IMG/VR virus record: IMGVR_UViG_3300042898_002218
Coordinates: 1-25,019 of that record
Reading direction: 5' to 3' (one strand)
Source of the DNA: a virus
DNA length: 25,019 nt
In this document: positions 3,089-22,685 of the stretch, piece by piece
Layout: each line of letters opens with the position of its first letter
How positions within the stretch are numbered: position 1 is the first letter of the stretch
Notes under the pieces: model-generated
Databases searched by the model: none
Seen by the model: only the letters and a program-made list of their open reading frames with translations
What the model was told of the DNA's origin: nothing
Position numbers and translations under genes: made by a program

Positions 3089-3113
3089 GTCAGTTACCTG
3101 TTCCTAGTTCGAA

Positions 3114-3121
3114 TATTTATA
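3114..3121 (-). promoter_or_regulatory. T4-type late promoter box, perfect TATAAATA
   Basis: TATAAATA on the minus strand is an exact match to the T4 late-promoter -10 element read by the gp55 sigma factor. It ends 25 bases before the ATG of the fibre gene at 3088, leaving room for a leader with its own ribosome-binding site. It overlaps the TAA stop of the upstream 201-residue gene, which supplies part of the box. Confidence 0.65.
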
Positions 3122-3722
3122 CAGCGTTTATGTTGCTCAGCGTCTGTATCCGCAGTGTGTAGTCAATCTGAATTTGACGGTTCAAGCTCTTTTGCACAGG
3201 GTGAAAAATCACATGTGTAATCAATCTTAGATCGTCAGCAGATCCATTCCAGGATTTGAGTCCCAGTTCGTCAAAAACAAATTCACCATTGAAATTGGTA
3301 GAATTATCAAAAGCCTGTTGTTCTGGTGGTTCGCCGTAGTCCAGCAAACAAGTTACCAAGATATCTGTGTACACTGTGCCCGATGTGTGTAGCACTGTCA
3401 TTTTGTTATTGGTTGGGTCAGTGTCTGCTGCATCATTATCGTCCACAACCTTGGCGTATGTTTCGTTATAAAGATCAGCGTTTTGTCCTGTGGTATTTGG
3501 GGGCAAGTAAGTGATCACGCCTGTGGGGTCTACTGAACTGCCGCCATTGCCAAATGCCATTTCGTATATTCTACCCAGTCCTCTATTGCTCAGTGTTTGG
3601 GCCATGGCAATGGATATATTTTCGTAGTGAATTGCGTTCTTTTTATCTAGTAAAATTTCACCTGAAACTGGGTCATGTATTTTTACAAATCCTTCAATTT
3701 TGCACAGTCCTGGTACTATCAT
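3117..3722 (-). CDS. Conserved-looking virion-associated protein, 201 aa
   Basis: A complete frame of 201 residues. Landmarks are a beta-rich N-terminus with VKIHDPVSGEILLDKKNAIH at about 13-32, EMAFGNGGSSVDPTG at about 54-68, LPPNTTGQNADLYNETYAKV at about 73-92, LLDYGEPPEQQAFDNST at about 126-142, and FVFDELGLKSW followed by HVIFHPVQKSLNRQIQIDY near the end. I recognise this pattern as a recurrent structural-type protein near baseplate and fibre genes of aquatic T4-like phages, with no assigned function known to me. There is no membrane segment. The start overlaps the stop of the 49-residue gene (ATGA), and a GGAGGG lies six bases upstream inside that gene, so translation is probably coupled. 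A role as baseplate-fibre adaptor is inference from position. Confidence 0.85.
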   Translation of the reverse strand: MIVPGLCKIEGFVKIHDPVSGEILLDKKNAIHYENISIAMAQTLSNRGLGRIYEMAFGNGGSSVDPTGVITYLPPNTTGQNADLYNETYAKVVDDNDAADTDPTNNKMTVLHTSGTVYTDILVTCLLDYGEPPEQQAFDNSTNFNGEFVFDELGLKSWNGSADDLRLITHVIFHPVQKSLNRQIQIDYTLRIQTLSNINAV

Positions 3723-3875: not shown

Positions 3876-3883
3876 TATTTATC
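3876..3883 (-). promoter_or_regulatory. Late-promoter-like GATAAATA before the 49-aa gene
   Basis: GATAAATA differs by one base from the T4 late box TATAAATA and lies 7 bases before the ATG at 3868. It contains the TAA stop of the giant gene at 3879-3881. If used, transcription would start within about two bases of the ATG, giving an almost leaderless message. It may therefore serve mainly the downstream genes. Confidence 0.4.
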
Positions 3884-6800
3884 CTCCGTTCCGCCCGGTC
3901 AAGAACCTTGCCTGCGGTGTGTCAGTTTCTTGCAGGGCCAAGCCGTCATTGACTTTGACTCCAGTTCCGTACCAGCCCAATCCACGGCGTTGCAATATGG
4001 TTATTTCCACGCCTGGTGGGGGTGCTAACATAGGATCAATTGGGTTTGAGTCAGTAATAAACTCAATGGCCAACGGCTCAAAATCAGTTACAATCCAACG
4101 ATATTGATCAGGCTCAATTGGTACAGAACTATCGCTGTAGTTATACTGACGAACACCGCCAACGTATACTTCTATTGTTTCTGTGTAAATGCTGCTGGAA
4201 TCACCAAAGTCACTAATGTCAATGCTTGGGGCATAGAATATTGTTGTTGACCCATCACCAACACTGGTATCACTTACCACATAGTTTTGATACTGTTCAG
4301 CTAGTAAGTTGCCTCGACTCATGTCATACACGTATGCACCAGTTTCGTGGTCAGCTGCACCTGTTCCTGCTGTGCCTCGACGCAGACCTGTCAAGGTATT
4401 TGTGCCTACATTGCGTTCTCTGTACATGATTCGCTCACCGTCAATGGTAATTATACCAAAAATACCTTCTGGCAAATTGGGTTCGGCACAGGCGTTTGCA
4501 TCAGCCACATGAATTGTGTTGCCAGCAGCCAACAAAGGTTGTGTTAGCGTAGTTGTGGTTGCTGGTGTAATTCTGTAAGTTCCTTGAACTCCACGCATGT
4601 CTTGGAATATTCGGAATGCACATGCTTCTGGTACTAGACTTTCAGTAAATTCTGTAACAGCTAAAATTTGAGCTGTGCCAATTGCACCGCTGGCCAAAAT
4701 TATGTAGTCGTCTACCACAGTGTAATCTTGACCTTCAAACAAACGGTAACCATCTAATGTTACCCATAGTCTGCCTGCTTCAATGCCTGGACGATCTAGA
4801 TAAAAATCATTTTTGCTGATAGCAGTACCTGCGCTGTAATCAAACGATCCTGGCAATCCGCTGACTGATCCTGCATCAAAGTCAGTACTGTCGTAGGGTT
4901 CTGCAACAGTAATACCTTCAATGACTGGTCCCACAAACACCAGTGTAGCAATGCTTTGCTGAGTGGTGTCATTAAATGTGGTTACCGATACTATGTTATC
5001 CAAAGGTGGTACTGAATTAAATTGCAATAGCGATCCAGCCAGGGTGTAATCTGCCAGTGTGCTTACTGAAATCAAAATTACATCGCCAGCTGCTGGCGCA
5101 GTGTTAAACACCACTTGTCTTCCCGGAGTGTTAGATCCGTCCCAGTTGGTCACAGAATAGTCACCAGCTGTTGCACCAAAACTTTGTACTTGCAATTCAC
5201 TGTTTTTGTATACTTGTATGTCTGTTATGGCGTTAATTGTTGATTGTAGAAAGCTAGATCCCAATCTTTGTGGCAGTCCAAAACTGGTTGAGCTGTCGTC
5301 GCCCTGCCATTCAATTCCAGCTGGGGGAGTCAAGCGCAACCCGTTGACTGTTACAATCATGTTGGCAGGATTTGTTCCTTCAACAGAATTCTCTAATGTA
5401 AATCCGCCAGTGCTGATCACTGTTGCATCAACCACCTGATACTGAACCTGTGGAGTAGACCATGAGTATTGTGTTGGTGTTTGAATTCCAAATGCCACTA
5501 ATGCAATGCCGTCAGCATCGCCAGGCGTGCTGGCCAAAGTAACTTTGGTCAACAATGTAGGAACATACACTTCCCAATAAGTTGTGTCAGTTATATCAGT
5601 ACCTTCTGGTACTGCTTGTATTGATCTGTAGTAAACACTGGTATTAATAACCACCATGTTGATTGGATAACTTTGCAAAATGTTCCAGGCATCTGCATCG
5701 TAGTATGGTTCCCAAGCCGGAACAGCAGCCGATTCGCCGTTGACAAAAATAGCCACAGTATAGATTTCTGCATCGTCAACTGGAATAATTACTGAATTTC
5801 CAATTTCTGCACCAGTATAGTTGTCTCGATACAACTGGTTGCCGCCACCCAATTCATATACTGAAATGTTCACAACATCATTGGTGGAAAATCCCTCGCT
5901 AGGAATAATTTCTACAGTTTCGTCGCCCCAATTGATGTAGTAATCTACATCTAATGTCATGGTACGCCCTGACGTTTGATTGCTAACCAGCACTTGTACT
6001 GGATGATCTACCACTCCGCTCCAGCCCAAAATATAAGATGTTGCTGGGTTGTACACATAGTTGATAACACCAATTTGGAATCCATGGCCGTCCATTTGCC
6101 AGTCAGATCCTGGTCGAGTATACACTCTTATGTCCAATGTATCAAACTCTGATCCGTTAACCAATTCTTCTGGCGCATGTCCTTCGTAAGGTCCAATAAA
6201 TTCGCCGCCGTCTACATTGACATCTGTGTTGCGTAGTCCTAATTCAATGTCTGTAAATTCACTTTCGTATTGAGCGTCAACAATTTCTGTGCCTAAGAAA
6301 TAATCACCCCATACCTGGACTCCAGGGTAATCAACCCCATCAATCAACAAAGGCAATTCAAGCCCTGGTGAATTAATGCCAGACACATAGTAGCCCATGG
6401 TACGGTCTACGCCACTTAGTGTGCCTGGGTCAACTTCAACCCAATTTTCAAGATCAAATGTAGGTCCAACCACAGCTGAACTTCCGTCACTGCTGTCAGC
6501 ACTCCACACACGATCATCATAACGTACCAAAGTTCCGTTGAGGTAAATTCCAGTAGAACTCCATGTTTGCACCGATGTTTGATATTGATAGCGATCGTAC
6601 TTGATTACTGTTTTAAATGCTCTCACTGTGGTAAGAGGTATGTTGCTATTGGTATCAATTTCCCATTGATCAAAATTTACCGCAGGATTGACGTTGTAAA
6701 CTTGTGCATCAAAGTCAGCCGAGTTTCTGTTGATCATGTTGGCGTAGGCTTGAGCGCCTGTACCGTTACCACCTGAAAACACTATGGTTGGAGTTGCTTG

Positions 6801-9800
6801 GTATCCGCTGCCAGGATTGGTTACGTTGATTGCTACTACTTGTCCTGCTGAATTAATTAAAGCAGTGGCTTCTGCAGGTGTCACAGCATCTCCTACTATG
6901 GTAACCTGCGGTGTAGTAGTGTATCCAGTTCCGTTGAACGTAACAACAATTGTTTCCACGCTCAACAGATAATTCTCGTACCATTGACTGTACGGCCATT
7001 CTGTCCAAATTTGATCAGTTGGTTCAGTGTCACTTAGTGTGTTACTAATTTGTGCTGTGCCGTGTGCGTACGGCAACAAGATAGGACTTGTATATTGTGG
7101 CACCGGCAATGTGGTGTTGTAAAACGCTGGTACGTCAAAGTCTGTTAAATCTCCTTGGTACAAGTCGTCGCCAAAGTACGTGAGATTGAACTCGCGCACT
7201 TGCACATGGTATGGTTTTACTTCTTGGAGGTAGTCAATCACAAATTCTTGATTGTCGCGGCTGTAATTTTGGAATGGCAACAATTCTCGAATTCTGTGAT
7301 CAACGTCAATCAATGATGTTTTGACCAGCCATTCAGGAGCAGCAAACTCGCTGAGTATAAAGTCAAACATCAAAGTCAAACTGCGATTTCGTTCAATTGC
7401 CAAATCATCCACAAACAATTCTTCATTGATAGCTTGGATAATTTTTCTTGTTTCAATTACAGGTTCTTGGTCAAAGTACTGTGCATCGAACACTTCAACG
7501 TCAAATCCAAATCTTCCAAGAGCATAATCATAGATTTCTGCAGAAATTGCGATAGTTCCATCTTCAAGTCCAACACGCTCAAATCCAAGATCAGTTTTTA
7601 AATAAATTTCAAATTTGCCTTGTGCATTTGCAGTTACTTTTACGCTGGCTCCTGTGGTTACAGATATTGTTGCCAAGCTAGAATAAGTTGGAACTTCTGC
7701 CACAGGTTTGATACTGGAATTGTATCCAGGGCGATACCAGTCAATGTAGCTCCAGTAATCTGTTGTGCGATAATTTTGAACTCGACTCAATACCAATTCT
7801 GGATCACCAGTGTTTGGATTTTCTGCTACAGTGTAAATTGTCCAAAGACCTCGATTGTCACTGTCGCTAACCACAAGATATTTGTAACCAATAGCATCGC
7901 CGCCAGGTGCTTCAAAATTATAAGTTAAAATTTCTAAGTTAGGTATCCGCTTGTTCCAGTTGATTACTGTTGCTCCATTAACTATTTGTGTAGATGGCAG
8001 TTCAGGTTCAGCACTGTTTAACAAAGCAAAACTACGGCTTTCACTTATTGTGTACTGTTTTAATACAGTATTGGCTCGAACAATGTAATTTTTTAGTGCC
8101 GCAAATCTATCAACAAACATTGACTGTCGAGGACGGAATTGTACTCCGTAGCGTTCAGCTGGTCCCAGATTAATGTCTGGTACTATGTTACCTGCTGTGT
8201 CAACTCCGCAGAACGAATCTTGTAGTTTTCTATAGAGATTGCCACTCAAGAAGCCATCAGCACGCCCTTGCGCTATCAGTTCATATTCCACGTGAACATT
8301 GGCATTGGTTAGTTCTCTATCAAATTCAACGTGGAGTATGGTATCTTCAGCTTCAATTAATGTTTCACAATTGTACAATGCAACTGTGCTGGAATTAATT
8401 GGTGCTAGATATGCAATGCCAGTTGATCGAGGATTTTCGATGTACTGAGAAATAGTTGCTGCACTAAGAGTTTTATTTTTCTGTGTGGCCACATCAGTAA
8501 TGCCGCGCACCCAGAAAAAGTATTGAGTGGTAAAGTTGCCATCTCGACTTAACACAGTATTGATAGTGTAACTGGATATGCTGTAAGGTGTTCCAGGACC
8601 AGCATAGTTGGCAGGAGGAACAGAACTCACAATCCATTGGTACACATCAATTGAGCTGCCAGGGAACACTTGTCCCCAACGTCGGCTGGCGTAAACAATA
8701 TCGTCTTGGTTGGGATCAATAAATCTTACTGTACTGATATCCCACCAAATTTCTCCCACATGTTCTGCGCCCCAAGTGGTGCCGCGCACGCCAACTGGTC
8801 CTACATTGTAACTGCCAGGATCAACTGCGCCAATATAATCAATGTTTTGACGAGCAGCACCAAGTATCTTACCTTGCAATGGATTAAAGAAGTCTAAAAA
8901 TTCTGTTGTGGCTGATGATATTCTGTCATACAAGAAAACACTGTTTAACAGACGCACATCAACAACTGGTTGTTCGACCCTGATTGGAGCCCAAGCTGGT
9001 GATCGTGTGGCATTTTGCCACACATGAGCTTGGCCGTAATTGCTACTGCTACTGTCACCAAAATCTGTACCAGGTGCGCCCATCCAGAGCACTCCGGATG
9101 TGTAGTCAACTGAAACTCCCAACTGATCCAAATAATCAATTGAAGTTATAGCAATCTGATTACCAAAAATAAACTTGCTTGGATTGGTTATGCTACTGTT
9201 GGCACTGTTCAACAAATCATATGTGTAAACAGCACCACTTTGATCTATAGTGGTAAAGAATGATGTTGCGCCTGCATCAAACAACTCTACGTAGTCATCA
9301 AATATTGTGATCAAGTACATAGTGCCACGAGGAGCACCCACTACTAGAGTGGTTGCAGTATCATCAACGCTGATGCTGGTGCCAAACCCAGCAAATTTTA
9401 CAGGGTACGGGCTTTGAATTGTTTGTGTCCATTCAAATGTGTTAAACCCAAGACTGTCAAATGCTGCTCCTATGCTGCCCGGAGCTACTTGTAATTTGTT
9501 TCCAGCAGGTGCGGCGTCAAAATTTGTCACGCTGAGTGTGAGCAGGCCACTGGTCACTGTGGCTGTTACATTGGGCACAACAGTGTTGATAGCTGCCGCA
9601 AGTCCAGTCACGGTATTATTGGGTGCTGTTGGTACCGCTACATCCATGTTGTTCACTCGCAAAGTATTGCCAGCTGTAAGGGTAGGGTTAGCATTGAGCG
9701 CAGTAATTACACCATACACTCTGCTTTGATTTAGACTGCGTTCAACCACACCGCCTTTGTAAATCTGGATGCTGCTTTGCGGTTCGCCAACGTATAGACT

Positions 9801-12800
9801 GCAATTGTATTTGCATAGATCAACACTCTGTCCAAAATTGCTAAATTCAGCTATGGTATCTTGTGTTACAATTTGCAACAGTTCAAACTGATTGGTTTCA
9901 ATTTCAACAATATCACCTGATTGTAAATTGTTTGCAAGATTTACAGTCACAGTAGATCCGCTAATTGTAAACGTATTGGTTGCGTCTTGTGTGGTAGAGT
10001 TTTGATTGGTCAAGAACTGATTGTTTACAATCACACTGATTGGAGCAACTGGTGTGCCTAGCACAGTAAAACTTGACGAGCTTGGGTCATTGTTCCAGAT
10101 AAACTTTTGCACATTGCGATCAAACACATATACTACACCTGCTTCAGTTTCTCCATCAGCAGTGGCATATGGCGCACCAATCATGACTTGACGGCCATCA
10201 GTACTACAACTCACGCTGTAGCCAAATTGCGCACCAGCGGCCAGGCCGCCAGCAGTTAGTGTGTCTACGTACAACCAATAGTCTTTGGCTCGGGCCAAAA
10301 TACTGGTGCCGCTGGCTGGCGAATTTAAGAATGTGATATCTTTAGTTGACGTATTAAATGTGTAGTCAATGTTTGGTCGTTGCAACACTCCATCAACTTC
10401 TATTTGAAAACTATATATGGTGCTGTCTGTTAGCGCAACTTGATAGAAATATTCATTCAATGAGAATACAGTTGCCAATGCTGGAGGTGTGTATGATGGT
10501 GTATTAATTGTAATAATTTCACCACTTATCACACTGCCCACTGTAAATGTAATATTGTTGGCTGGTACTGTACCTCCACCAAAACTGGTAGCAGGAATAG
10601 TCAATGTATTGCCTACAGTATAACCTGTGCCGCCATTTTGAACGCCAACTGTGACTGTTCCTCGGCGTCTGCTAACTGTGAACAATGCTCCTGATCCTGA
10701 ACCACCAGTGGCTGCCACGCTGAAATAATCAGCGCCGTCAAGATCTTGCAATGCAATGCGACGAATAATAATATCAGATCCACTTACAGGCGCAGACACA
10801 AATGTCACTGTGTTTAACGCTGCATTTACTGTGTAATCTGTGTTCAACGTTTGAATCTCACCATCAACTGTGACACGCAATTGTGTGGCCGCACTTATGG
10901 CGATATAATCATTAATCAAGTATATTTTTGTAGATCCATCACTTGCTGTTCTAAAATATTGATCTTCCCAGTCAACACGACCATAAGCATAAACTTTGTT
11001 TAAATCAGGTGCGCCAACATACATCCAACGCTCGTCAAGGCTCATTGCTACAGAGTAGCCAAATCTTCCTTGGTCTGCGCTGACACTACCTGGAGTAGTC
11101 AACAGTTGCCAATTAAAATACGGATTGGTGTCTGGCAAATAAGATCCAGTGTCGCGATAGATTACACAAGCATAACCGTTATTGGTCTGGCTCGCAGATC
11201 CTAAGCTCAATGGTGCTCCTGCAACTGCCCAGTCTTTGTTGCCAAATTTTACTGAAGTACCATATGCTCTTACGCCAGTTATATCCAAAGTTAATAACGC
11301 ATCGCCGCTTGATACAGGACTAGCCGGCTGGTAAACATCGCTTGTGCTTCTTACATAAGTGTAAACACCGCCTTTTGGATTTGCAGACGTTGGGAATCCA
11401 TATCTTGGGCTGCCAACCAAGGCAGCAAATCTATTAGTGGCCTGAGATACACTTGACCCGTATGCTTCTGTAGCGTCTAAATACTCTGGCGCAATTGAAG
11501 TAACTTCGCTGAAAATGTTTTGTTTTTCAACCACTTGCCACAAACCATTTCCATTGTCATCAACCCAAACTTTTGCACCAGACAGCAAACTGTTAGCATA
11601 TGGAAGAGTGTCTACATCACTGGCTTGACTTACTCTCATGGTTTTTAAAGTAAACGCTAGGCCAGTGCCGTTAACTACTGTTCGATTGCTTAAAAATCTA
11701 AAAGCAATGTTTATTGTGTTCAAATTAACAACAGACAACACATCATACACACCATCAACTTCTGTATCAAAGAATCTGATAATAATTCTATTGCCAGCAA
11801 CAAGTCCGTGGTCAGCAGTAAAAATCACACGGCTGGTGTTATTCAAGTTATCGCACACGTGACTGATTGTACCTGGCACTGATTCAGCTCGGTAAATGTT
11901 CCAATCGTAGTCATTGACTTTGGCAACCCAAATACTTGTACCCACATTGATGTTATTAATGTTGGCTTCAAGGCTGGCAGGATCATCAATGTCAAATGCT
12001 GTAATGTCAGCATCGTCAAGATTTACATATCCAGCTGATGGCAGCGCAGTATCTGTTGGCAATTCAGTTGTTGTTGGAAGAATGTTAGGTGAAGTAAGTT
12101 TAAAACTTTCTTTCCACACATTTTCCAACAAAACAGTTTGATCGGCTTTGCTGGATTCCAAAGGCAATATTACCTGAACCAAACTTGGGCTGGCATCCAG
12201 TAGCGCACGATTCAATCGCAATTCAAAATAACTGCGATTGGCATTGGCTCCGTATACTGCACGTTGTACTGCCCAGTTTTCATAAATGTTATAGTCGCCT
12301 GTTTCTTTTCCTAACACTGCCTGACTAAACAATTCTGCACTAAGGATAGTACCTTTGGAGTCCAAGAACTGTCGATAGATGTTCACTTGACTCACATCAT
12401 CTAAATTCAATGCTGCCATGTATTGTCGAGGTCTAAAGCCAATAAGGCCATAGCTCAATAGATCATTGTCATTTTCCAAGTTGGCAGCATTAATGTCATA
12501 ACTGTTGGCCAATTGATTGGCTTTGTTTGCAAGATTGGGCAACAGACCCAATTCAATATGAGAGTAATCACTTTGTACCCATTCGTTATAGTCAAATGTC
12601 TCGCTAGGCTGAACAATTGTCATAGCACTCCAATACGTGCCTTTGTATTTGACAATGGTGCCTTTGCTGTAAATTTTATAATTTTGCCATTCTTCCACAT
12701 TGTCTTGGTTGAGAATAAATCCTTGTGCGTCCACAGCACCATTCCACTCAGTAGAAGTAGCAGATACCAAGTTCAGTCGATTTTGTCTTGCACCAGTCAC

Positions 12801-15800
12801 TGGATCATATATCAAGTCTCCAAACACACTTGCATTATCCAACACAATCATGTGTTCGTAAGATGTATATTTGATGTCAATAAAACTCAGAGTTTGATCA
12901 GCTAATGGCTCAACGCTGAATGTGTTGTCAATACGAACAATGTTCAATTGTCGTGTGGGTAACTCTCTACGATTCTGATCCAGTAGAATATTTTCACTAG
13001 TTTGTGCTTGAATCGAGTCAACAACTGCTTGTTCCTTGGTAACACTAAGTCGGAATGCCAGTGGGTTTAACGCAATCAATGCATCATCGCTCCAGCCTTG
13101 TGCTGCCCAGTACAAAAATTCATTGGCCATTTGATTCCAGTCAAGCTCATAACCATTGGCTCTGTTTGTAAAAGTAAGACCTTGAGTTTCTAAATATTGG
13201 CCCAGGCTTAACAAAAAGTCAACTACTGCTGTTTTGGTATCAAATATAAATCCATACGGAACTTGTACCACAGTATTGGTATAAGATGTTGGCACTTGAA
13301 TTCTGGTGTCAAGTACAGTTATGGTGCGCAATTGACCCGAGTTTTGACTTTGCAATATGCTAAAATAAGGCTGTGTGGTGCTGTAACCGAATACTGCATA
13401 GCCGCCTGGCACTGTTTGAACCAATACTGAACTGTAGCTGGCTCGATCAAATGGTTGGTTTTTGTACAGTAATAAATTGTAACTTTCGTCAGGAATCAAA
13501 AAGCTGGTGTTGGTGCTGGCTGGGCTGCTTTTTTCAGTGTAAAGTTTGATGTATTTTTTGTCTGAGAAACTGGCCATGCGATAACACAACCGCACGTCAA
13601 GGTTGGCTAAGTCAGCAGTTAAATCTTCAGTTGAATCTATACCTGATTGTCTGTTGTAGTCCACGATCCAGTCAATGTAACTGGCTTTGCTTACACCATT
13701 GCCGTATATTTCAATACCATTAGCATCTAGTCTATATCGTCCATCATATAGATATTGTTGAAATTCTTCTTGATAGCGATACAAATCACGATCAGCAAAC
13801 AATGCAAAGAACTTGGCTGGTTGTGTCAAAGCCAACAAACGCATGACTGCAAACGGATATGAACTTGAATTCCACCACGAGGCTTCAACTGGGCCGCCGT
13901 CACCAATGCTCCAGTTCTTACGGAATTGTCCTGCGTCCCAAGTTCCCACTACCGAATCAAATGGACTTAGTAATGCTCCTTCACTGCCTGTGGGAATAAC
14001 TGATGTCAGTCCTGGTCTTGCATATTTTGAAAGATAATAAGGTGCAACTGGGTCTCTAACATAACCAGCTTCCATGTCATCCCACAGCACCAAGTTACCT
14101 TCAGTGTAAGGTGCAGGTCCATAGGTGTCGTCCCACCAGTTGGGTTTGACGCTGAGTCCTAGCATTTCCCAGGGTGTGTATTCTGGCTGTTGAGTATCGT
14201 AGAAGTAACGATAAATTCCTCGCCAGGCTCCTAACAAATAATCATTGTTGAGTTTGTTTTGGGCTTCGCTATAGTTCCATGTAAACTCATTGTTAGCTTG
14301 ATAGTCTTGTGCGGTGTAGTCAAGTTTGTTCCAGGCCACCCAACTGAGAAAGTCTTGTGACAAAATGTTGTTGACTTCACTGTAAGAAAACCCAGTGTCT
14401 CTAAACTGGCCCGGAATAACATCAGCGGCTACCAGAGGAACTGGATTTCCGTCTAATTTTAGATTGTTGAAAATTCTTGTTTCAAATTCCAACAACACAT
14501 CATCTCTAATGTCATCAAATGTTTTTGTGACTGATCCATCGTGCCCAATCAGTACTGTTTGTTCGCCTGTGCTGGTTTGTTGAACTGTAATTCTTGGTCT
14601 AAAAGCAGGGTACAAACCAAGTTTGGTAGGAGTGTTTGGCACAAAGTTACCATAAGTGGCGGTGTATTCTCTAATGGCAATTTGATCGCCCACTGACAGC
14701 GTGACCAAGATGGTCACACGAGGACCATCTGTGGCCACAGTATATTCTAAATCACGAGTGAGCAAACGATTATTAAGATATACATCCAGGCCCAAATAAT
14801 TTGCAGATGTGTAATTGTATACCTGAACAGTATCAAACACGCTAGACGTAATAAAACTCACAGTGTATGTGTTTTCAGTATACACCGCACCCGATGGCAA
14901 CATGTCTGACCAGTAGAATGGTTGTGTTTCTACTTTGCCAGCATTGAGTTCTTCAATGGCAGTGTCTAGGATTTGAGCAGTAGTTTGAAAATTAATTTCT
15001 TGCTGAGTTACATTGTCCAGCATGATACTTTTAAACTTAGTGTATTCTCTACTGTTGTAGGTTAACGCATTAAAAATATTGTATTGCTCACTGCGCAAGA
15101 AATATCCAGCCAAAGTCATTGGAGCACTTTGTTGTAGGATAGTTAATCCATAAGGAATGATGTCGCCAAGGTCCCTAGTGTTGTTGGCGCCGGCAATAGC
15201 ACCTTGGATGCCTGGTAAATTTTCGCAAATACTTTCGTAGTTTTGACGTATGGTTCCTAGCGTAAAGCTGGTACTGTTGGCATTGAGCGGGTTGTTCTGC
15301 AGGTTAGATGGAACTTGATAAAAGGCCGCAGCACTAATTTGATCGCTTAACACCAAAACTTCAATAATGTCACCCACCACATAAGTGTTGAGTAATGTAA
15401 TGGTAGTATTGTTGCCACTTATAACGTAAGTGTATTTGGTAGGATCTTGGAACACACTACCAACATAAACTTTAACCACTGGTACAAAACTGCCAGTTTG
15501 ATCAATAACTGGCACATCCAATTTTAATATTCCAGTGTTGTAAGTAAACTTAAATTGTTGATACATTTGAATGGTAGTGATTGCATTCTGCCACCCAATT
15601 AATCTTGTGTATGCTGTTCTGTCAGCATATTCTCTAGCACTACCAGAGCTAATGGCGATAGTTACTGATACGTTATCTCTAGTGTATACAAATGTATCTT
15701 TGTAGAGGTTGTTGTCAAACACAATATCTCCCACATTGGAGATACTGAGATACCGTAATGGAATTTTTAAAACTGTATCAAGTATTCTTGTGTCGCCAAT

Positions 15801-18581
15801 TGCATAACTGAATAGTTTGCTACCAATGAAGTCTGAGCTGGGATATTTTGCTTGATTACCGAAACTAACTTGATCGGCGTCATATACATCAAACAACGGT
15901 GCCTGTTGAACACCAGTTTTTTGTTGCGCCTCAATCCAGGCAGCTCCGTCATACCAGAAAGTCAATCCTTGCAAAGTATCACCTGATAGGCACAGTGTAG
16001 ACTGGTCAGTTGATACTTCGCCATCTGATGCCAGTGTGAGATTGATAATAGGTTGTGCAATCAGTGGCGGCACTGTGTCAGGCACAATGAATTCTACTAC
16101 AAAAATTTTGTCTCTTACATCTGGATCTTCGTCAGCAGCAAAAATAACTCTGGTACCATTGGTAAAAGTATATCCGTCTACTGAGTAGCCAGTTGATCCT
16201 TGAATGTTAGAGAATGCATCTGTTTCAGACTGATCAATTATATCCACAGGTTGTTTGCCCTGAGTACCCATGTTGAACAGTCGAATATCTGGACGGAATT
16301 GAATAATTGGACGTTTGCCACGATAGTTGTTGTCTAGTGTAGCCACAGTATTGTTATAAGCAGCCGTGGCATTGATTACATCAATGTGGAACCAACGGTT
16401 TGACCGTGTCCAAGGATTGAGGTCTTGACTTGCACGATCAATGGTGAAATAATCTAATTCTTCAGGCACTGGCAAACTAGAATCATTGTCATTGATTACA
16501 TAAGATTCTGGAGTGACAAAATTTGTAACAGGCAACAGCTCAATAGCAGTTCCTACACCAGCCACATAATATTCACGATAGTTGATAGCAGTGGCATTCA
16601 TGTCAGCTGTGGCTGTGGTCAATGTCACAGCACTACCATCAACTACACTTGACACAGTAAATTGAAATGAGTTTACAATGCTCTGAACGTAATAGGATTG
16701 TCCAGCAACTAGTCCTCCAATCACTGTGCCAGTAAACACTATACGTTGGCCAACATACAAATCTTCTGTGGTTGCTGTGCTAATTGTGTTGAACCCAGCG
16801 TTGGTAGATGTGCAAACAAAAGATATAGTTCCACTACTGTAACTTGCTGGAATAACATCGCCCCGAAAAACTATTTTTAGTCCGTTGGTAAACGATACAC
16901 CATTGGGGCTGGTGTAATTTTTTTGTCCTAAAATATCATCAATGAACAGTGTAGAACTTTCTGTTTCATCTAACAGTTTGATTGTACCAAAAATTTCTGG
17001 GTCAGTACCATCTTGATAGTACAAGGTGTTTAGCAACGCTGTCAGCAGAGGAATTTGTCTAAATTCGCCTGCGGCATCTTTGTACCAGTTAGTACTGCTG
17101 TACACAGTGCCATATCTAATGGTCCATTTGTTCAAATTGTCAATGGTAGCTATTCTAGACAATCTAAGATAGGTAATTCCGTCACTGACTACATAATTGA
17201 TTTGCCAAAGTTGATATCTGTCTTCTGGTGCAATTTCTACTGTATACGAAAATGGTTCAGTGTCAAAGCTGCCAATCAATCCGTTATTGACAGTCCCTGC
17301 ATCCAGTGGGTCATAGAAACTGGTTCGAATCCAGCCTCCACTTTCGGCATCAGTGTTTGAATTTGTAAAAATTAAAGTTCTGTTGTTGAGGCTGGTTATT
17401 CCGTCAATGCCGCCGTAGGTCTCAATAAACGTGTCTAGAGGTTGATTGTTAATTTGTTCAAACTGAAGTTCTGTAAGCAAATCAACTGTTTGACTGAACA
17501 CTGGCAAATTGTAATAAAAACTCTGAGCTGTTTTTGTAGGCACATTAAAAATCACCGTGCCAAGATCTTCGCCATTGTTGGTCACACCAAAAACATCACG
17601 TGAGCTGATGTTTGGTGTAGCAGGAATTTTGCCAGACACGCCTGGATTTGTTTGTATCCAAAATCCTGGGCCAGTGCCGGGTACTCCGTCTACAATATTC
17701 AACGTGCCGCGCATGTTGGTTTGTGTGCCACTCACATAGTACAATGTGTCTGGTGCATTTCTTGGCACGGTAAATGTCACAAGGCCAAAGTTTGATCCAT
17801 TGCGACTGACACCATCGTTGTAAGGATTGGCTGACCCCAATGTCTGTTCAGTCTTGATCCAGAACGGGAAGTCGCCTTGCAAGTTCAAATTGAACACATA
17901 GGTGTTTCCGCGAGCCAGCGTCAGTGTGGGGTTGTTAAGGAAGTCAATGGTGTATGCAGAAATACCAGAGTTTCCAACACGGTAGTTTACAGTTTCTGTG
18001 GAGTTCTGTGCTACCTGAAACGTATAGCTGCCGCCACGTACCACTTCAATGGTTGGGTTCTCGCCGGGTATTCCAGAAAATGTATAAACGCCGTTGGCTC
18101 TTGTGACTTCAAAGTCGTCTGTTACAGGCACGCCTGTGGCAGCAACGTCTACTGCATTGGGCCCATTGGGTAACCAAAAATACTGAGAGAAGTTTACAAA
18201 TGTATCAAAATTGATAAACGGATCCCAAGTGTAATAATCACTTGAGAACAATCTGTCTGGTCGTTGCGTTGGTGATCCTTGGAACTCCAATGCATCAAGC
18301 ATACCTGGATAGGTAATGATATTTTTAATTGTTGTGGTATCAGCAGGATCTAAACTGACCACTCCTGGTTCCAGTTGATAATCACTGCGTGTTTTTGTTG
18401 GCTCTACCACATACTTGTCGTTGGGGTTTACACCCGGACCAACTGTGCGACCAATGAAACCTTGTGTCTTTTTAAATTTAGGTTCTTGAATCAGTTGGTC
18501 AAGTGTGGCCGCTAAAAACTGTTTGTTAGTTTCAGTTTGAAAAATTTGCGGAAGAAAGTCTACTGAGCGTACTCGTGCCAT
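3879..18581 (-). CDS. Giant multidomain baseplate/virion protein, 4900 aa
   Basis: One uninterrupted frame of 4900 residues. The N-terminus (RVRSVDFLPQIFQTETNKQF, then DYQLEPGVV and YYTWDPFINFD) matches my memory of very large virion proteins next to gp6 in aquatic T4-like phages. Landmarks in order: degenerate cupredoxin-like unit at about 221-297; an 80-residue module shared with gp6 at about 584-665; TPWEMLGLSVKPNWW near 1469; GFRPRQYMAALNLDDVSQVN near 2048; seven FG-GAP-like propeller blades at about 2365-3190; EVKPYHVQVREFNLTY near 3787; two GYxxxPxxxxxG units near 3887 and 3927; IDGERIMYRERN near 4710. Ten copies of a beta module (VxVxxGxxxxxxDY) are scattered through it. It begins at a TAATG overlap with gp6. 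The T4 counterpart position is gp7 (about 1030 residues), so a wedge or peripheral-baseplate role is inferred from synteny. There is no signal peptide or obvious enzyme motif. Confidence 0.9.
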   Translation of the reverse strand: MARVRSVDFLPQIFQTETNKQFLAATLDQLIQEPKFKKTQGFIGRTVGPGVNPNDKYVVEPTKTRSDYQLEPGVVSLDPADTTTIKNIITYPGMLDALEFQGSPTQRPDRLFSSDYYTWDPFINFDTFVNFSQYFWLPNGPNAVDVAATGVPVTDDFEVTRANGVYTFSGIPGENPTIEVVRGGSYTFQVAQNSTETVNYRVGNSGISAYTIDFLNNPTLTLARGNTYVFNLNLQGDFPFWIKTEQTLGSANPYNDGVSRNGSNFGLVTFTVPRNAPDTLYYVSGTQTNMRGTLNIVDGVPGTGPGFWIQTNPGVSGKIPATPNISSRDVFGVTNNGEDLGTVIFNVPTKTAQSFYYNLPVFSQTVDLLTELQFEQINNQPLDTFIETYGGIDGITSLNNRTLIFTNSNTDAESGGWIRTSFYDPLDAGTVNNGLIGSFDTEPFSYTVEIAPEDRYQLWQINYVVSDGITYLRLSRIATIDNLNKWTIRYGTVYSSTNWYKDAAGEFRQIPLLTALLNTLYYQDGTDPEIFGTIKLLDETESSTLFIDDILGQKNYTSPNGVSFTNGLKIVFRGDVIPASYSSGTISFVCTSTNAGFNTISTATTEDLYVGQRIVFTGTVIGGLVAGQSYYVQSIVNSFQFTVSSVVDGSAVTLTTATADMNATAINYREYYVAGVGTAIELLPVTNFVTPESYVINDNDSSLPVPEELDYFTIDRASQDLNPWTRSNRWFHIDVINATAAYNNTVATLDNNYRGKRPIIQFRPDIRLFNMGTQGKQPVDIIDQSETDAFSNIQGSTGYSVDGYTFTNGTRVIFAADEDPDVRDKIFVVEFIVPDTVPPLIAQPIINLTLASDGEVSTDQSTLCLSGDTLQGLTFWYDGAAWIEAQQKTGVQQAPLFDVYDADQVSFGNQAKYPSSDFIGSKLFSYAIGDTRILDTVLKIPLRYLSISNVGDIVFDNNLYKDTFVYTRDNVSVTIAISSGSAREYADRTAYTRLIGWQNAITTIQMYQQFKFTYNTGILKLDVPVIDQTGSFVPVVKVYVGSVFQDPTKYTYVISGNNTTITLLNTYVVGDIIEVLVLSDQISAAAFYQVPSNLQNNPLNANSTSFTLGTIRQNYESICENLPGIQGAIAGANNTRDLGDIIPYGLTILQQSAPMTLAGYFLRSEQYNIFNALTYNSREYTKFKSIMLDNVTQQEINFQTTAQILDTAIEELNAGKVETQPFYWSDMLPSGAVYTENTYTVSFITSSVFDTVQVYNYTSANYLGLDVYLNNRLLTRDLEYTVATDGPRVTILVTLSVGDQIAIREYTATYGNFVPNTPTKLGLYPAFRPRITVQQTSTGEQTVLIGHDGSVTKTFDDIRDDVLLEFETRIFNNLKLDGNPVPLVAADVIPGQFRDTGFSYSEVNNILSQDFLSWVAWNKLDYTAQDYQANNEFTWNYSEAQNKLNNDYLLGAWRGIYRYFYDTQQPEYTPWEMLGLSVKPNWWDDTYGPAPYTEGNLVLWDDMEAGYVRDPVAPYYLSKYARPGLTSVIPTGSEGALLSPFDSVVGTWDAGQFRKNWSIGDGGPVEASWWNSSSYPFAVMRLLALTQPAKFFALFADRDLYRYQEEFQQYLYDGRYRLDANGIEIYGNGVSKASYIDWIVDYNRQSGIDSTEDLTADLANLDVRLCYRMASFSDKKYIKLYTEKSSPASTNTSFLIPDESYNLLLYKNQPFDRASYSSVLVQTVPGGYAVFGYSTTQPYFSILQSQNSGQLRTITVLDTRIQVPTSYTNTVVQVPYGFIFDTKTAVVDFLLSLGQYLETQGLTFTNRANGYELDWNQMANEFLYWAAQGWSDDALIALNPLAFRLSVTKEQAVVDSIQAQTSENILLDQNRRELPTRQLNIVRIDNTFSVEPLADQTLSFIDIKYTSYEHMIVLDNASVFGDLIYDPVTGARQNRLNLVSATSTEWNGAVDAQGFILNQDNVEEWQNYKIYSKGTIVKYKGTYWSAMTIVQPSETFDYNEWVQSDYSHIELGLLPNLANKANQLANSYDINAANLENDNDLLSYGLIGFRPRQYMAALNLDDVSQVNIYRQFLDSKGTILSAELFSQAVLGKETGDYNIYENWAVQRAVYGANANRSYFELRLNRALLDASPSLVQVILPLESSKADQTVLLENVWKESFKLTSPNILPTTTELPTDTALPSAGYVNLDDADITAFDIDDPASLEANINNINVGTSIWVAKVNDYDWNIYRAESVPGTISHVCDNLNNTSRVIFTADHGLVAGNRIIIRFFDTEVDGVYDVLSVVNLNTINIAFRFLSNRTVVNGTGLAFTLKTMRVSQASDVDTLPYANSLLSGAKVWVDDNGNGLWQVVEKQNIFSEVTSIAPEYLDATEAYGSSVSQATNRFAALVGSPRYGFPTSANPKGGVYTYVRSTSDVYQPASPVSSGDALLTLDITGVRAYGTSVKFGNKDWAVAGAPLSLGSASQTNNGYACVIYRDTGSYLPDTNPYFNWQLLTTPGSVSADQGRFGYSVAMSLDERWMYVGAPDLNKVYAYGRVDWEDQYFRTASDGSTKIYLINDYIAISAATQLRVTVDGEIQTLNTDYTVNAALNTVTFVSAPVSGSDIIIRRIALQDLDGADYFSVAATGGSGSGALFTVSRRRGTVTVGVQNGGTGYTVGNTLTIPATSFGGGTVPANNITFTVGSVISGEIITINTPSYTPPALATVFSLNEYFYQVALTDSTIYSFQIEVDGVLQRPNIDYTFNTSTKDITFLNSPASGTSILARAKDYWLYVDTLTAGGLAAGAQFGYSVSCSTDGRQVMIGAPYATADGETEAGVVYVFDRNVQKFIWNNDPSSSSFTVLGTPVAPISVIVNNQFLTNQNSTTQDATNTFTISGSTVTVNLANNLQSGDIVEIETNQFELLQIVTQDTIAEFSNFGQSVDLCKYNCSLYVGEPQSSIQIYKGGVVERSLNQSRVYGVITALNANPTLTAGNTLRVNNMDVAVPTAPNNTVTGLAAAINTVVPNVTATVTSGLLTLSVTNFDAAPAGNKLQVAPGSIGAAFDSLGFNTFEWTQTIQSPYPVKFAGFGTSISVDDTATTLVVGAPRGTMYLITIFDDYVELFDAGATSFFTTIDQSGAVYTYDLLNSANSSITNPSKFIFGNQIAITSIDYLDQLGVSVDYTSGVLWMGAPGTDFGDSSSSNYGQAHVWQNATRSPAWAPIRVEQPVVDVRLLNSVFLYDRISSATTEFLDFFNPLQGKILGAARQNIDYIGAVDPGSYNVGPVGVRGTTWGAEHVGEIWWDISTVRFIDPNQDDIVYASRRWGQVFPGSSIDVYQWIVSSVPPANYAGPGTPYSISSYTINTVLSRDGNFTTQYFFWVRGITDVATQKNKTLSAATISQYIENPRSTGIAYLAPINSSTVALYNCETLIEAEDTILHVEFDRELTNANVHVEYELIAQGRADGFLSGNLYRKLQDSFCGVDTAGNIVPDINLGPAERYGVQFRPRQSMFVDRFAALKNYIVRANTVLKQYTISESRSFALLNSAEPELPSTQIVNGATVINWNKRIPNLEILTYNFEAPGGDAIGYKYLVVSDSDNRGLWTIYTVAENPNTGDPELVLSRVQNYRTTDYWSYIDWYRPGYNSSIKPVAEVPTYSSLATISVTTGASVKVTANAQGKFEIYLKTDLGFERVGLEDGTIAISAEIYDYALGRFGFDVEVFDAQYFDQEPVIETRKIIQAINEELFVDDLAIERNRSLTLMFDFILSEFAAPEWLVKTSLIDVDHRIRELLPFQNYSRDNQEFVIDYLQEVKPYHVQVREFNLTYFGDDLYQGDLTDFDVPAFYNTTLPVPQYTSPILLPYAHGTAQISNTLSDTEPTDQIWTEWPYSQWYENYLLSVETIVVTFNGTGYTTTPQVTIVGDAVTPAEATALINSAGQVVAINVTNPGSGYQATPTIVFSGGNGTGAQAYANMINRNSADFDAQVYNVNPAVNFDQWEIDTNSNIPLTTVRAFKTVIKYDRYQYQTSVQTWSSTGIYLNGTLVRYDDRVWSADSSDGSSAVVGPTFDLENWVEVDPGTLSGVDRTMGYYVSGINSPGLELPLLIDGVDYPGVQVWGDYFLGTEIVDAQYESEFTDIELGLRNTDVNVDGGEFIGPYEGHAPEELVNGSEFDTLDIRVYTRPGSDWQMDGHGFQIGVINYVYNPATSYILGWSGVVDHPVQVLVSNQTSGRTMTLDVDYYINWGDETVEIIPSEGFSTNDVVNISVYELGGGNQLYRDNYTGAEIGNSVIIPVDDAEIYTVAIFVNGESAAVPAWEPYYDADAWNILQSYPINMVVINTSVYYRSIQAVPEGTDITDTTYWEVYVPTLLTKVTLASTPGDADGIALVAFGIQTPTQYSWSTPQVQYQVVDATVISTGGFTLENSVEGTNPANMIVTVNGLRLTPPAGIEWQGDDSSTSFGLPQRLGSSFLQSTINAITDIQVYKNSELQVQSFGATAGDYSVTNWDGSNTPGRQVVFNTAPAAGDVILISVSTLADYTLAGSLLQFNSVPPLDNIVSVTTFNDTTQQSIATLVFVGPVIEGITVAEPYDSTDFDAGSVSGLPGSFDYSAGTAISKNDFYLDRPGIEAGRLWVTLDGYRLFEGQDYTVVDDYIILASGAIGTAQILAVTEFTESLVPEACAFRIFQDMRGVQGTYRITPATTTTLTQPLLAAGNTIHVADANACAEPNLPEGIFGIITIDGERIMYRERNVGTNTLTGLRRGTAGTGAADHETGAYVYDMSRGNLLAEQYQNYVVSDTSVGDGSTTIFYAPSIDISDFGDSSSIYTETIEVYVGGVRQYNYSDSSVPIEPDQYRWIVTDFEPLAIEFITDSNPIDPMLAPPPGVEITILQRRGLGWYGTGVKVNDGLALQETDTPQARFLTGRNGG
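9010..11489 (-). other. Seven FG-GAP/integrin-like propeller blades within the giant protein
   Basis: Seven units share the pattern (F/Y/L)G-x-S-(V/I), then a strand ending in GAP, GSP or GEP, and usually a small-residue-VY-type strand. The G motifs start at residues about 2373 (AYGSSV, VGSP), 2439 (AYGTSV, AGAP), 2507 (FGYSVA, VGAP), 2786 (FGYSVS, IGAP), 2916 (FGQSVD, VGEP), 3066 (FGTSIS, VGAP) and 3154 (LGVSVD, MGAP). Seven is the blade count of an integrin-alpha propeller. The calcium loop DxDGxxD of classical FG-GAP repeats is missing, closer to the FG-GAP_2 type. Spacing is 66-68 residues for the first blades and up to 279 where beta modules are inserted. The fold is inferred; the repeats are visible. 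Confidence 0.7.
16590..16832 (-). repeat. Shuffled 80-residue module, copy in the giant protein
   Basis: Residues about 584-665 of the giant protein read VCTSTN, then YVGQRIVFTGTVIGGL, YYVQSI, FTVSSVVDGSAVTLTTATADM. The same order of motifs occurs in gp6 at residues about 536-615. The module reads as a beta-sandwich-like insert. A more distant relative may start near residue 2237 (GTISHVCDN). Confidence 0.7.
17688..17921 (-). other. Degenerate cupredoxin-like unit in the giant protein's N-terminal region
   Basis: Residues about 221-297 contain LTLARGNTYVFNL, PFWIKT, VTFTVPRNAPDTLYY and a final GTLNIVDG, the order of strands in cupredoxin-like units of marine phage and bacterial proteins. Those usually carry an HPF motif and a YYxCxxHxxM motif. 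Here the His before PF is Phe 238, the Cys position is Ser 284, the His position is Gln 287, and only Met 290 remains. Copper binding is therefore not expected, and the unit is probably structural. Confidence 0.5.
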
Positions 18582-21500
18582 TAAATTACTCCGCTGCCTG
18601 CTGCTGTGCGCAGGTTAGTACTGGTCAATGCTTCAATCACATCAATGTTATCGATGGTTGCGGCATTGGCAAAAATCTCATTGGGTTGAGAACGAATTTC
18701 ATACAAGTCACCAAAGCTCTTTTGTGGATCCAATGGAACCAACACTACAGAACTGATAATTGTACCAAGTTGTCGATGCAAGTAAGCAGCAAGTTCAGAG
18801 AAATAGAATGTGTCACCAAAGTTCCATTTGTCAATTGAAAAATAACTGTTCATTTCTGCTAGTACTGAGCTTTTGATTTCAGAAGTTGATGCTGTTGAAT
18901 TTTGTGCTCGTATCACTTTGATAGTAGCACGCAATGTGGTTGCGGCCTTGAGTCCAAACAGCGGTTTAAAATTCACTGAGTTGACCACAATGTTGTCAGA
19001 CACCATTTTGTAATCTTGTAATCGTTGATATTCTGTGCTTAGATCATCAATAGTTGGTTGTTCAGGTTCAGTAACTGTGCCAGTAGTGTCTTTCAACCAG
19101 TTCTGGTAGGCATTATAATAGCTCAAAGTGACCACATACAAGTCAATGATGTTGGTAGTTCCTGGATCAATTCTACTGGTCAACGGACTGTTGTGTCTGT
19201 ACTGATAGTACAAACTTTGTCGTCCGGCTCTTGCAATCCATCCTGTGACTGCGTTAAGTTCTAACACTCCAGTCACTGTCAAACTCAGTTGATAAAATGC
19301 AGCTTCGCTGTAGGCATAAAATACCTGTCCTGAAGACCATTCAGTTTTTACCAATTCAATTTCATCAAGTGTAGCATAACTGTAAATTACCACGCCTTCG
19401 TCTACCAACAAATAACGCTGTAGGTTGTCAAAGTCCACAGTTTGTTGCAAGAACACATAAGGTCCTGTAGTTCCAGCTGGTCCTACTATTTCACTAAAGA
19501 AGTCTGGGTTGTCTGGCACGCCATCATTGTCTGAGTCTCTGTATCCTACCAGCACCTGGAAGTCATCTACATATCCATCGCTTTCGACTGGCTGACCAGT
19601 AATGGTCATGTAAATATCTCCTTCGAGTGGTTCACTGGAGTTTGGTTGGGTGTTGACTGCTAACACATTGATAAAATCTTTGATCACTGTGCCAGTACGG
19701 CTGTCATAGATTTGCGCACCATCGTAGAAGAAGAATCTTGTTTGCAACACTGATCCAAAGTTGTATGCAAGTCCACGGAATGTAATTGTGTAATTTTGAT
19801 TTTGAACCACAAACTGGATCAGCCATGAAGAGTCTAGACTGGCACCGCTGGTATTACCAGCGTACTCTTGACTCCAGGCAGCGTCTTGGTCCAGATTGGT
19901 AGATTGAATCAAATACCACGAGTACGGAGTACCTGTAATGGCGCCGTCATTGTCGTAGCCCAGGCCAAAATTACGAAACAGTGCAATTTGATCACTCATT
20001 GCAGATTCAATCGACAGTGGCAAGTCTGTAACAAATAACGGAATAATAGTGTCTACTATAGCACCAGTAGGAACAAAGTTATTGAGTATGACTGGCCCTG
20101 ACCCATTGGTTAAATTACCCAATCCTGAGTTCATACCATCGCCAGTTACTCGTATGGGGCTGGCCCAAATTTCCACACGCTCTTCTGCTTTGGTTGGAAT
20201 GCCCAATTGCAGTTTGTTGTTTTTATCAAAAAAGTAACCCGGTGGCGGAACAAAACGTACTAAACTACCAACAATAGCGTACAAGAAATTGGTTGTAGAT
20301 TCATCTCCCACTGCAATGGGCGTGCCTGCGTTGTTTTCAAAGTATCCAGTGGTTTCATTGGCCAATGTAGTGCTTTGGTGCCAGGTGCTTCCGCCTGTAC
20401 TCAAAGTAGTAACTGCACTCATTGAGCCTGACGCCGAGCTTAATGTCACTGCCGATCCACCAGCTGTGGTGCTTACAGTAAATGTACTGTTGACTGAATT
20501 TATGCTGACCACATAATAAGGCAAGTCGGCGGTAATGCCACCAAACACTGTGCCCGAGAATGTGATTGGCATGCCAACATAGGCATAATCAAAAAATGCA
20601 GCAGTAGAACAGGCAATTGTATTGGTTGTAATTGTTGTGGTCGTGCAAATGATATCTAAAGTGTTGATTAACTTTCTTGGAAAATTTCCATAGTAAAACT
20701 GACGCATTGTACTTTCAGTCAACTGTGGTTGCACCTGATTGGTAATTACATCAGCAATTTCGTTGCGGTTGGTCCAACTGAACAAAACAGTTGGTAAAAT
20801 ATTTTGTTGCCACAATCCTCCGTCACTACCAAAACTGTTGGTTGAACTGTATTTGCCAGTGTTATCAACCAAGTCAAGATATCGACTAGTGCCAATTGAC
20901 GCACGATTCAATGCTTTAGATTTGATAATTGAATTGTACTGTGTGTAAGGAAACAAGTTGTAGTCTTCACCATTGACCATGCGATTTTGTGTGTAGTACC
21001 TAGCAGGCGCACGTTGTTTGATTTCATCAATTGGCTCGCGAGCCTGTGCATTAGATACCGGACGAGTAATACCACAAGTAAATGTGATAGTTTGCAAATT
21101 GCCGTTGCGGTCAGTATAACTGATAGGCAAAACTACATTTTGCATTTCTTCAGGATTGATAATGTACTGCAATCCATTGGAACTGCGTACATAGGCACGG
21201 AAAATTCCTACTGGAATTTCCGAAAACACTCCATCTCCAAATATCATGGTAAGTTGATCGTTTGTTCTGCTGGTTGTGGAATAGATTGATCGTAGGCCAG
21301 TCAGTTGTTCAGCTGCACCAACGTAGATATTTTCTGTGTATTGCCATTCACGGCTGATACTTCCCACGTTGTCAAGTTGAAACAACCAACGATCTTCGTT
21401 GTTTACGCCTTCGATGTTGATGTTTACTGTGCGGTTGGCAATGCGCTCGGCCAAGTTAAAGTCTTGATTTTGTAGCGTGCCTTGCTTGAATGCAAAAAAG

Positions 21501-22310: not shown

Positions 22311-22685
22311 TTATACGTAGCTGGCTCTGCGTTGTTGATTATCAAAGAACACACTTAAAAATTCAGCATCAGTTCCTGGCAATACTGCTATTTCTAACTG
22401 TATTAGAAACCCGTTGTCTTGAGGAAACACTGCCATTTGCGTAACTTGTATTCTTGGATCGCCACCGCACACACGTTGCACTTCTGTTTCAATATTGCGT
22501 TGCAGTTCAGTGATTTGATTTTCAAAAACATAGTCCCACATCACGGTGCCGTACTGCGGACGACCAGGCAATTCTCCTTGCCGTATGTTGAACGCATTCA
22601 ACAGATCTCGTTTGATTAACTCAAAGTCAACCAAGGTAAATTTTTTATATTGGTTAATGGTATTGAAGCCGATGAATGTGGTCAT
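22311..22685 (-). CDS. 25: Baseplate wedge protein gp25
   Basis: A complete frame of 124 residues with the family signature RQGELPGRPQYG at residues 35-46, followed by MWDYVFENQITELQRNIETE and, in the C-terminal half, GGDPRIQV and a LIQLEIAVLP strand. Gp25-like proteins are found in all contractile injection systems. In T4, gp25 sits in the wedge core with gp6 and gp53 and nucleates sheath polymerisation. The length is close to T4 gp25 (132 residues). The start at 22685 follows the upstream gene's stop by 17 bases. The gap holds a GATAAATA seven bases before the ATG and no clear ribosome-binding site. Position directly before gp6 supports the assignment. Confidence 0.93.
   Translation of the reverse strand: MTTFIGFNTINQYKKFTLVDFELIKRDLLNAFNIRQGELPGRPQYGTVMWDYVFENQITELQRNIETEVQRVCGGDPRIQVTQMAVFPQDNGFLIQLEIAVLPGTDAEFLSVFFDNQQRRASYV

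Follow-up and report, generated by a model that had tools for sequence, protein, structure and literature searches.

A predicted seven-bladed integrin-like propeller inserted in a giant baseplate-wedge-type protein of uncultured jumbo phages

The analysed stretch, hereafter the window, comprises 25,019 nucleotides (positions 1 to 25,019) of the IMG/VR virus record IMGVR_UViG_3300042898_002218, and its minus strand, on which all features described below lie, encodes in order a hub/lysozyme-like fragment, an unassigned protein, a gp25-like protein, a gp6-like protein and a giant protein of 4,900 residues that carries a predicted seven-bladed propeller. The gp25-like gene (22311..22685) was read as a baseplate wedge subunit from its matches to phrog_975 ('baseplate protein', E 3.6e-9) and phrog_43 ('baseplate wedge subunit', E 4.9e-7), and the gp6-like gene (18581..22261), so called by position and size, matched phrog_10646 ('baseplate wedge subunit', E 1.3e-276). 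The giant occupies an open frame at 3879..18581, matches phrog_10938 ('virion structural protein', E 2e-302) and abuts the gp6-like gene at 18581, and on comparison with the T4 gene order its place directly after gp6 is the position of T4 gp7. Two segments of the giant are common to cultured jumbo phages, the left scaffold (residues 1290–2340, 11562..14714; tblastn of an overlapping piece and blastp blocks) and the right scaffold (residues 3205–3830, 7092..8969; blastp blocks), and between them, at about residues 2355–3196 (8994..11519), lies the propeller with its modules, delineated by a blade profile, the AlphaFold2 model and the match to integrins. Since the gp7 position was found but hhalign of both scaffolds against a single T4 gp7 sequence detected no similarity (probability under 1%), the giant is called here a wedge-type protein in the gp7 position, and not gp7.

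A scaffold piece of the giant, overlapping the left scaffold, gave tblastn matches in 60 phage records, eight of which (PA5oct, Atu_ph07, SCTP-2, Vibrio 2.275.O, RaK2, 121Q, Phosso and Hallingskeid; records of 287–490 kb) were examined. In six of the eight, the annotation of the gene just upstream of the giant names a baseplate wedge protein, and SCTP-2 and Vibrio 2.275.O have a large gene of another name there. The giant homologue in the PA5oct record carries a tag for electrospray ionization tandem mass spectrometry (ESI-MS/MS) and is taken as a virion protein because of it, so that the neighbouring baseplate genes and this tag together support the giant being a virion protein. Profile searches of the PDB gave no match for the left scaffold, and for the right scaffold four SNF7 rows only (E 0.04–0.25), which were judged to be chance.

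Exactly seven FG..GAP units were observed in the giant, at residues 2374, 2440, 2507, 2786, 2916, 3066 and 3154, using the pattern (F/Y/L)GxS(V/I) followed within 8–22 residues by (G/S)(A/S/E)P, which was composed after reading an earlier prediction made from the window sequence alone (the original prediction). A chance motif as the source of the seven units was ruled out by shuffling all residues of the protein 2,000 times, after which the pattern gave a mean of 0.0135 matches and a maximum of 1, and a single LGLSV at residue 1474 has no GAP partner. The alignment of the relatives comprised the window and 39 loci (40 non-redundant rows), and a blade profile built from this family gave seven matches in the window protein (E 2.3e-11 to 3e-20) and none elsewhere in it below E 0.1. 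As this profile includes the window's own blades in its training, the stricter test was a leave-one-out search in which six blades seek the seventh (independent E-value, i-E, < 0.01), and it found blades 1 to 7 in 28, 7, 40, 35, 31, 40 and 34 of the 40 relatives, respectively, with shuffled copies giving 0 matches at i-E < 0.01 and 2–6 at i-E < 1; for the window, this test recovered blades 2 and 7 only weakly (E 0.39 and 0.43). Of the Pfam profiles, FG-GAP_2 (PF14312) marked one of the seven window blades, at 2769–2820 (31.2 bits in the whole protein and 43 bits in the excised region, cut-off 23), and matched 39 of the 40 rows at E <= 1, and the calcium-loop type FG-GAP (PF01839) reached at best a partial match of 15.1 bits in the window, below its cut-off of 22.1, and matched 5 of the 40 rows at E <= 1 (best 0.0039). 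Integrins bind calcium in the loops between strands 1 and 2, which here have 2–5 residues and a constant length in all 40 rows, and the strict calcium-loop motif D.[DN].[DN]G..D had 0 matches in the 40 relatives. As judged from these sequences, the predicted propeller belongs to the FG-GAP_2 (PF14312) type, without calcium loops. The original prediction had named seven units and absent classical calcium loops, and both stand, its first two positions (2373 and 2439) being off by one; of the profile searches it had proposed, FG-GAP_2 passed its cut-off in one blade and FG-GAP in none, all seven blades being recovered only with the family-built profile.

The AlphaFold2 model of residues 2341–3215, computed with the 40-row alignment, reached a predicted local distance difference test score (pLDDT) of 85.2 and a predicted template modelling score (pTM) of 0.87, with short stretches of low confidence. 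Compared with solved structures by VIA-align, all 50 of the listed matches were integrins by title, with Z of 34.0–38.3, 355–387 residues aligned and a root-mean-square deviation (rmsd) of 2.6–4.1 Å, and all of them span model residue 15 or 16 to 852–874, which is the whole ring. The best match among those listed was 9t3y_A (Z 38.3, rmsd 2.7 Å, 363 residues), and 4wjk_A (Z 34.9) had 383 of its 452 residues covered. Ring closure was judged from this match of the predicted model to closed integrin rings and from the strand order, as in the strand list of the model three strands come after each FG unit and the fourth stands before the next one, so that the N-terminal strand 2358–2363 would be strand 4 of blade 7 and close the ring. 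Foldseek was less favourable, its 50 listed rows giving template modelling scores (TMq) of 0.08–0.33 and rmsd of 10–39 Å, with the cyanophage A4 portal-tail chain 9k09_U ahead of the integrins; these poor superpositions are attributed to the large inserts, which VIA-align bridges, and VIA-align alone gives a tight fit. When the PDB was searched with a propeller profile, the best match was integrin alpha-6, at E 0.45. The low Foldseek scores, together with the weak blades 2 and 7 of the window in the leave-one-out tests, are what separate beta-sandwiches or an open solenoid merely resembling propeller repeats would produce, but such an arrangement is extremely improbable given the close fit of the model to closed integrin rings over its whole length, the seven units in 61 of 67 relatives, and the ends of the segment, which meet where relatives have no insert. 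The best reading of the model is that residues about 2355–3196 form one closed seven-bladed integrin-like propeller without calcium loops.

Along this predicted ring, the N-terminal strand and blade 1 (FG unit 2374) lie at 11325..11510 (motif, structure match and strand list), blade 2 (FG unit 2440) at 11100..11264 and strands 1–3 of blade 3 (FG unit 2507) at 10974..11063 (both by motif, blade profile and strand list). Inserts sit between strands 3 and 4 of three blades in the window: blade 3 is split by 231 residues (2537–2767, 10281..10973; strand list and a PF03906 match), after which its strand 4 and strands 1–3 of blade 4 (FG unit 2786) follow at 10098..10280 (PF14312 above cut-off, strand list); blade 4 is split by 62 residues (2829–2890, 9912..10097; strand list and loop lengths), followed by its strand 4 and strands 1–3 of blade 5 (FG unit 2916) at 9729..9911; and blade 5 is split by 97 residues (2952–3048, 9438..9728), for which the matching segment of one relative (L030) is Flagellin_IN-like, followed by its strand 4 and blade 6 (FG unit 3066) at 9153..9437. 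Strands 1–3 of blade 7 (FG unit 3154) occupy 9015..9122, this and the two preceding stretches of blade strands being assigned by blade profile and strand list. The original prediction of a closed integrin-like seven-bladed propeller with loop insertions, embedded in a baseplate protein, is thus upheld by the blade counts, the AlphaFold2 model, the VIA-align match, the baseplate-wedge neighbours and the PA5oct tag, with no sequence link to T4 gp7 found, and the separate sandwiches or open solenoid named as its refutation were not found in the model; its extra modules are also present, but within blades 3, 4 and 5 and not between blades as it had placed them.

The inserted modules differ between relatives in length and type. 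Over the 40 rows, the insert of blade 3 measures 144–276 residues and that of blade 5 95–151 residues, and the inserts keep to a small set of constant loop positions. Some relatives have further ones, in 12 of the 40 rows in the strand 2–3 loop of blade 1 and in 5 of the 40 in that of blade 4, and one lies between blades 1 and 2. The Phage T7 tail fibre N-terminal domain PF03906 is matched where the blade 3 insert starts (residues 2542–2611, 10749–10958; 28.8 bits against a cut-off of 25.2, E 1.2e-6), a partial match covering profile positions 8–74 of 157, and 11 of the 40 rows match this domain at E <= 1. For the middle module of the same insert (about 2612–2707), 28 of the 40 rows share one type, 7 have a replacement and 5 have none. 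Flagellin_IN (PF07196) passes its cut-off in the blade 5 insert of L030 (E 2e-5) and is matched at E <= 1 by 8 of the 40 rows, the window not among them. In a search of the propeller region of the 40 rows against PHROGs, only phrog_11431 was found, in one row and inside the T7-like insert, and no family for the propeller itself. A carbohydrate-binding module (CBM) of the CBM5/12 type was considered by eye for the blade 1 insert of the strand 2–3 loop and rejected, as the two segments tested among these 12 rows match no CBM in Pfam; one tested segment of similar appearance from a blade 5 insert likewise gave no CBM match in Pfam. In T7, the N-terminal domain of the tail fibre anchors that fibre on the tail, and both this domain and Flagellin_IN are assembly or structural modules. 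A possible, if doubtful, explanation is accordingly an internal docking hub, in which the inserted modules would hold tail fibres or other baseplate proteins and not the host; it draws on the PF03906 match and on the position of the three inserts in strand 3–4 loops, on the face opposite the usual ligand face of integrins, but no partner protein was identified, the absence of the blade 3 middle module in 5 of the 40 rows and its replacement in 7 would be unusual for a conserved interface, and the cultured relatives examined have no propeller.

The number of blades is nearly constant among the relatives. The family profile gave seven matches in 37 of the 40 rows and eight in 3. Among 172 IMG/VR loci, both flanking anchors were present in 144 (the 28 loci lacking an anchor were left out of the blade count). 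Seven blades were counted in 137 of the 144, six in 4 and eight in 1, and no blade in the remaining 2, L101 and L102. As loci overlap, these 144 were reduced to 89 distinct sequences (82 with seven, 4 with six, 1 with eight and 2 with none), and the 67 clusters at 90% identity with both flanks gave 61, 3, 1 and 2, respectively. Part of the loci were retrieved with a propeller query, which biases these counts; among the loci retrieved with a scaffold query (best 80 of 181), both anchors were present in 61, with seven blades in 60 and eight in 1. In seven large related contigs (220–364 kb, completeness not given), FG-GAP_2 matches (E <= 0.01) occurred only in the giant frame in all seven. Beyond these relatives, tblastn against 50,697 phage records found no match at 1e-5 for the propeller and none at 1e-2 for the propeller of the divergent relative L171, and a search of the genome_contigs collection with the propeller alignment gave 533 pattern stretches, with no relative among them.

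Comparison with relatives lacking the propeller places its boundaries, and on the sequence evidence the whole propeller is an insert in the giant, which could not be seen by the original prediction, as it had no relatives. The motif is absent from the eight cultured jumbo-phage homologues, which also show no blade-profile match below E 0.1, and with the metagenomic L101 and L102 all ten of the more distant relatives are non-carriers. The blastp blocks of the cultured homologues end at window residue 2136–2280 and restart at 3174–3218. The joined window flanks were aligned with the ten empty relatives, and in six of them (L102, L101, PA5oct, SCTP-2, Atu_ph07 and Phosso) the flanking strands join directly, as a 'W.V' strand, a short turn, a second strand and a conserved stretch. 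In the window, the left arm is LWQVVEKQ (residues 2347–2354, 11520..11543), a strand in the model that aligns with these W.V strands, and the right arm, placed by the joined-flank alignment, is WAPIRVEQ (residues 3197–3204, 8970..8993); the junction reads LWQVVEK ... WAPIRVEQPVVDVRLL in the window and LWEVLE ... VRTEEQRVKTKLI in L102. The two flanking strands probably form a beta-hairpin in the host protein. The left scaffold was also used for a tree (42 rows, 41 of them different, propeller columns excluded; unrooted, long branches flagged), in which one branch with support of 100/100 parts the 32 carriers from the 10 non-carriers, and a single gain of the propeller is the simpler reading than its loss on this unrooted tree with long branches. 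In the giants of Atu_ph07 (L014) and Phosso (L019), these strands are preceded by about 1,500 residues of a different segment, in which GxGY-type repeats can be made out by eye, so that the region tolerates large inserts.

Differential conservation was observed along the giant. Over the same 21 rows, the mean pairwise identity is 57.3% in the propeller region and 72.3% in the left scaffold, and over the 40 rows it is 55–70% in the blades, 46.7% in the blade 3 insert, 54.8% in the blade 4 insert and 61.2% in the blade 5 insert. That a propeller missing from related phages, in a lineage whose giants have other large variable segments, could be a filler or spacer enlarging the baseplate with no specific partner is quite improbable, because the blades are well conserved and all seven are retained in nearly all relatives of the clade. 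The faster divergence of the propeller and its swapped module suit an exposed, partner-specific surface, which they do not prove.

We consider it somewhat better than evenly probable that the inserted integrin-like propeller of the giant is a baseplate binding platform for the cell surface, a binding role that we infer and that the original prediction had proposed for a glycan or protein partner. On the computed evidence, the propeller is spliced between the neighbouring strands LWQVVEKQ and WAPIRVEQ of the giant in a clade of uncultured jumbo phages, and as a closed ring brings its own two ends together, it can sit in a loop without disturbing the scaffold. The long strand 3–4 loops of blades 3, 4 and 5 bear the further beta-modules, one of them swapped or missing in some relatives. 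The T4 baseplate has six wedges, and with six wedges here as well there would be one propeller per wedge; propeller and modules would then bind a glycan or protein of the cell surface, serving adsorption or triggering. A stronger version, which we regard as unlikely, makes the wedge itself the receptor-binding organelle, in which six integrin-like rings with swappable adhesin modules in their loops would grip the host directly and the signal would pass through the graft point to trigger the baseplate. Several points weigh against the platform interpretation. The named insert modules are of assembly or structural types, which favours docking over host binding; of the three inserts, that of blade 3 alone clearly exceeds the blades in variability, which those of blades 4 and 5 do not; and relaxed constraint could be another cause of the faster divergence. 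The Foldseek superpositions and their top row, given above, also count here, as does the left strand of RaK2, 121Q, Hallingskeid and Vibrio 2.275.O, which aligns badly and makes the exact site less sure, and the structure model of the scaffold is too poor (pLDDT 60.6, pTM 0.34) to show how the propeller is seated on the baseplate.

Further observations were made elsewhere in the giant. The poor scaffold model is locally confident in one module of some 80 residues, located immediately upstream of the propeller (residues 2231–2315, model 941–1026); the PDB comparison of this model reached mainly that module, which resembles small barrels of phage endosialidases and of ubiquitin E1 enzymes (Z about 7–11). 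At window 16710–18137 (residues 149–624) lies a second large segment, for which none of the eight cultured homologues gave a blastp block, and its repeated stretches look cupredoxin-like by eye. Residues 1964–1985 form a weak CBM_5_12-like stretch (E 0.051), with values of 0.0011 in the PA5oct giant and 1.5e-4 in the Atu_ph07 giant, all below cut-off, and the module at residues 3870–3951 matches phrog_460, phrog_1922 and several places in the Atu_ph07 giant and is perhaps a mobile tail module. Most of the complete relatives of the giant have about 4,700–5,300 residues, and the frame stops early in L010 and L029 (contig IMGVR_UViG_3300008117_000729) and in L056 and L085, at about 2,337, 2,390 and 3,371 residues, away from the contig ends, as real breaks or assembly errors.

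Among known systems, the integrin alpha propeller (PDB 9t3y and 4wjk) shares with the predicted model the seven blades, the positions of FG and GAP and the overall ring (Z 34–38), and differs in its calcium loops, which the phage propeller lacks. Integrins with an I domain carry a propeller insert between blades 2 and 3, whereas the phage inserts are in the strand 3–4 loops of blades 3–5 and the ring sits in a phage virion-type protein. Compared with FG-GAP_2 (PF14312), window blade 4 passes the curated cut-off, and the differences are three blades split by inserts and only one of seven blades marked. The giants of PA5oct, Atu_ph07, RaK2, 121Q, Hallingskeid, SCTP-2, Phosso and Vibrio 2.275.O have homologous scaffolds on both sides and no propeller, and related phages with and without it thus offer a clear natural case of a closed propeller as a plug-in domain. 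The best viral structural match is a protein of an uncultured Caudovirales phage (A0A6J5L8L4, BFVD model, piece 3; E 7.9e-28, 18% identity), which possibly belongs to this family as a distant member, and BFVD rows and the literature (PMC11467894) name FG-GAP proteins of uncultured phages and of algal or amoebal giant viruses. FG-GAP proteins of prasinovirus MntV1 and medusavirus were proposed to aid attachment, and virus-encoded FG-GAP was held to be almost unseen (PMC11467894); these are virus-encoded as here, but belong to eukaryotic viruses and are not tail proteins. No paper on FG-GAP in a phage baseplate was found in the searches made of the open-licence literature. The receptor-binding protein of S. 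aureus phage 80alpha has a five-bladed propeller platform with suggested GlcNAc binding of wall teichoic acid (PMC7048315), and it resembles the present case in placing a propeller in a phage baseplate, but with five blades in a separate trimeric protein on a coiled-coil stem, and not seven inside a wedge-type protein. Propellers of phage tails are thus already known, and the novelty lies in the predicted graft of an integrin-type ring into a baseplate-wedge-type protein, where it takes a structural position in the baseplate and has named loops whose modules vary between relatives, by which host recognition in this group of uncultured jumbo phages becomes testable.

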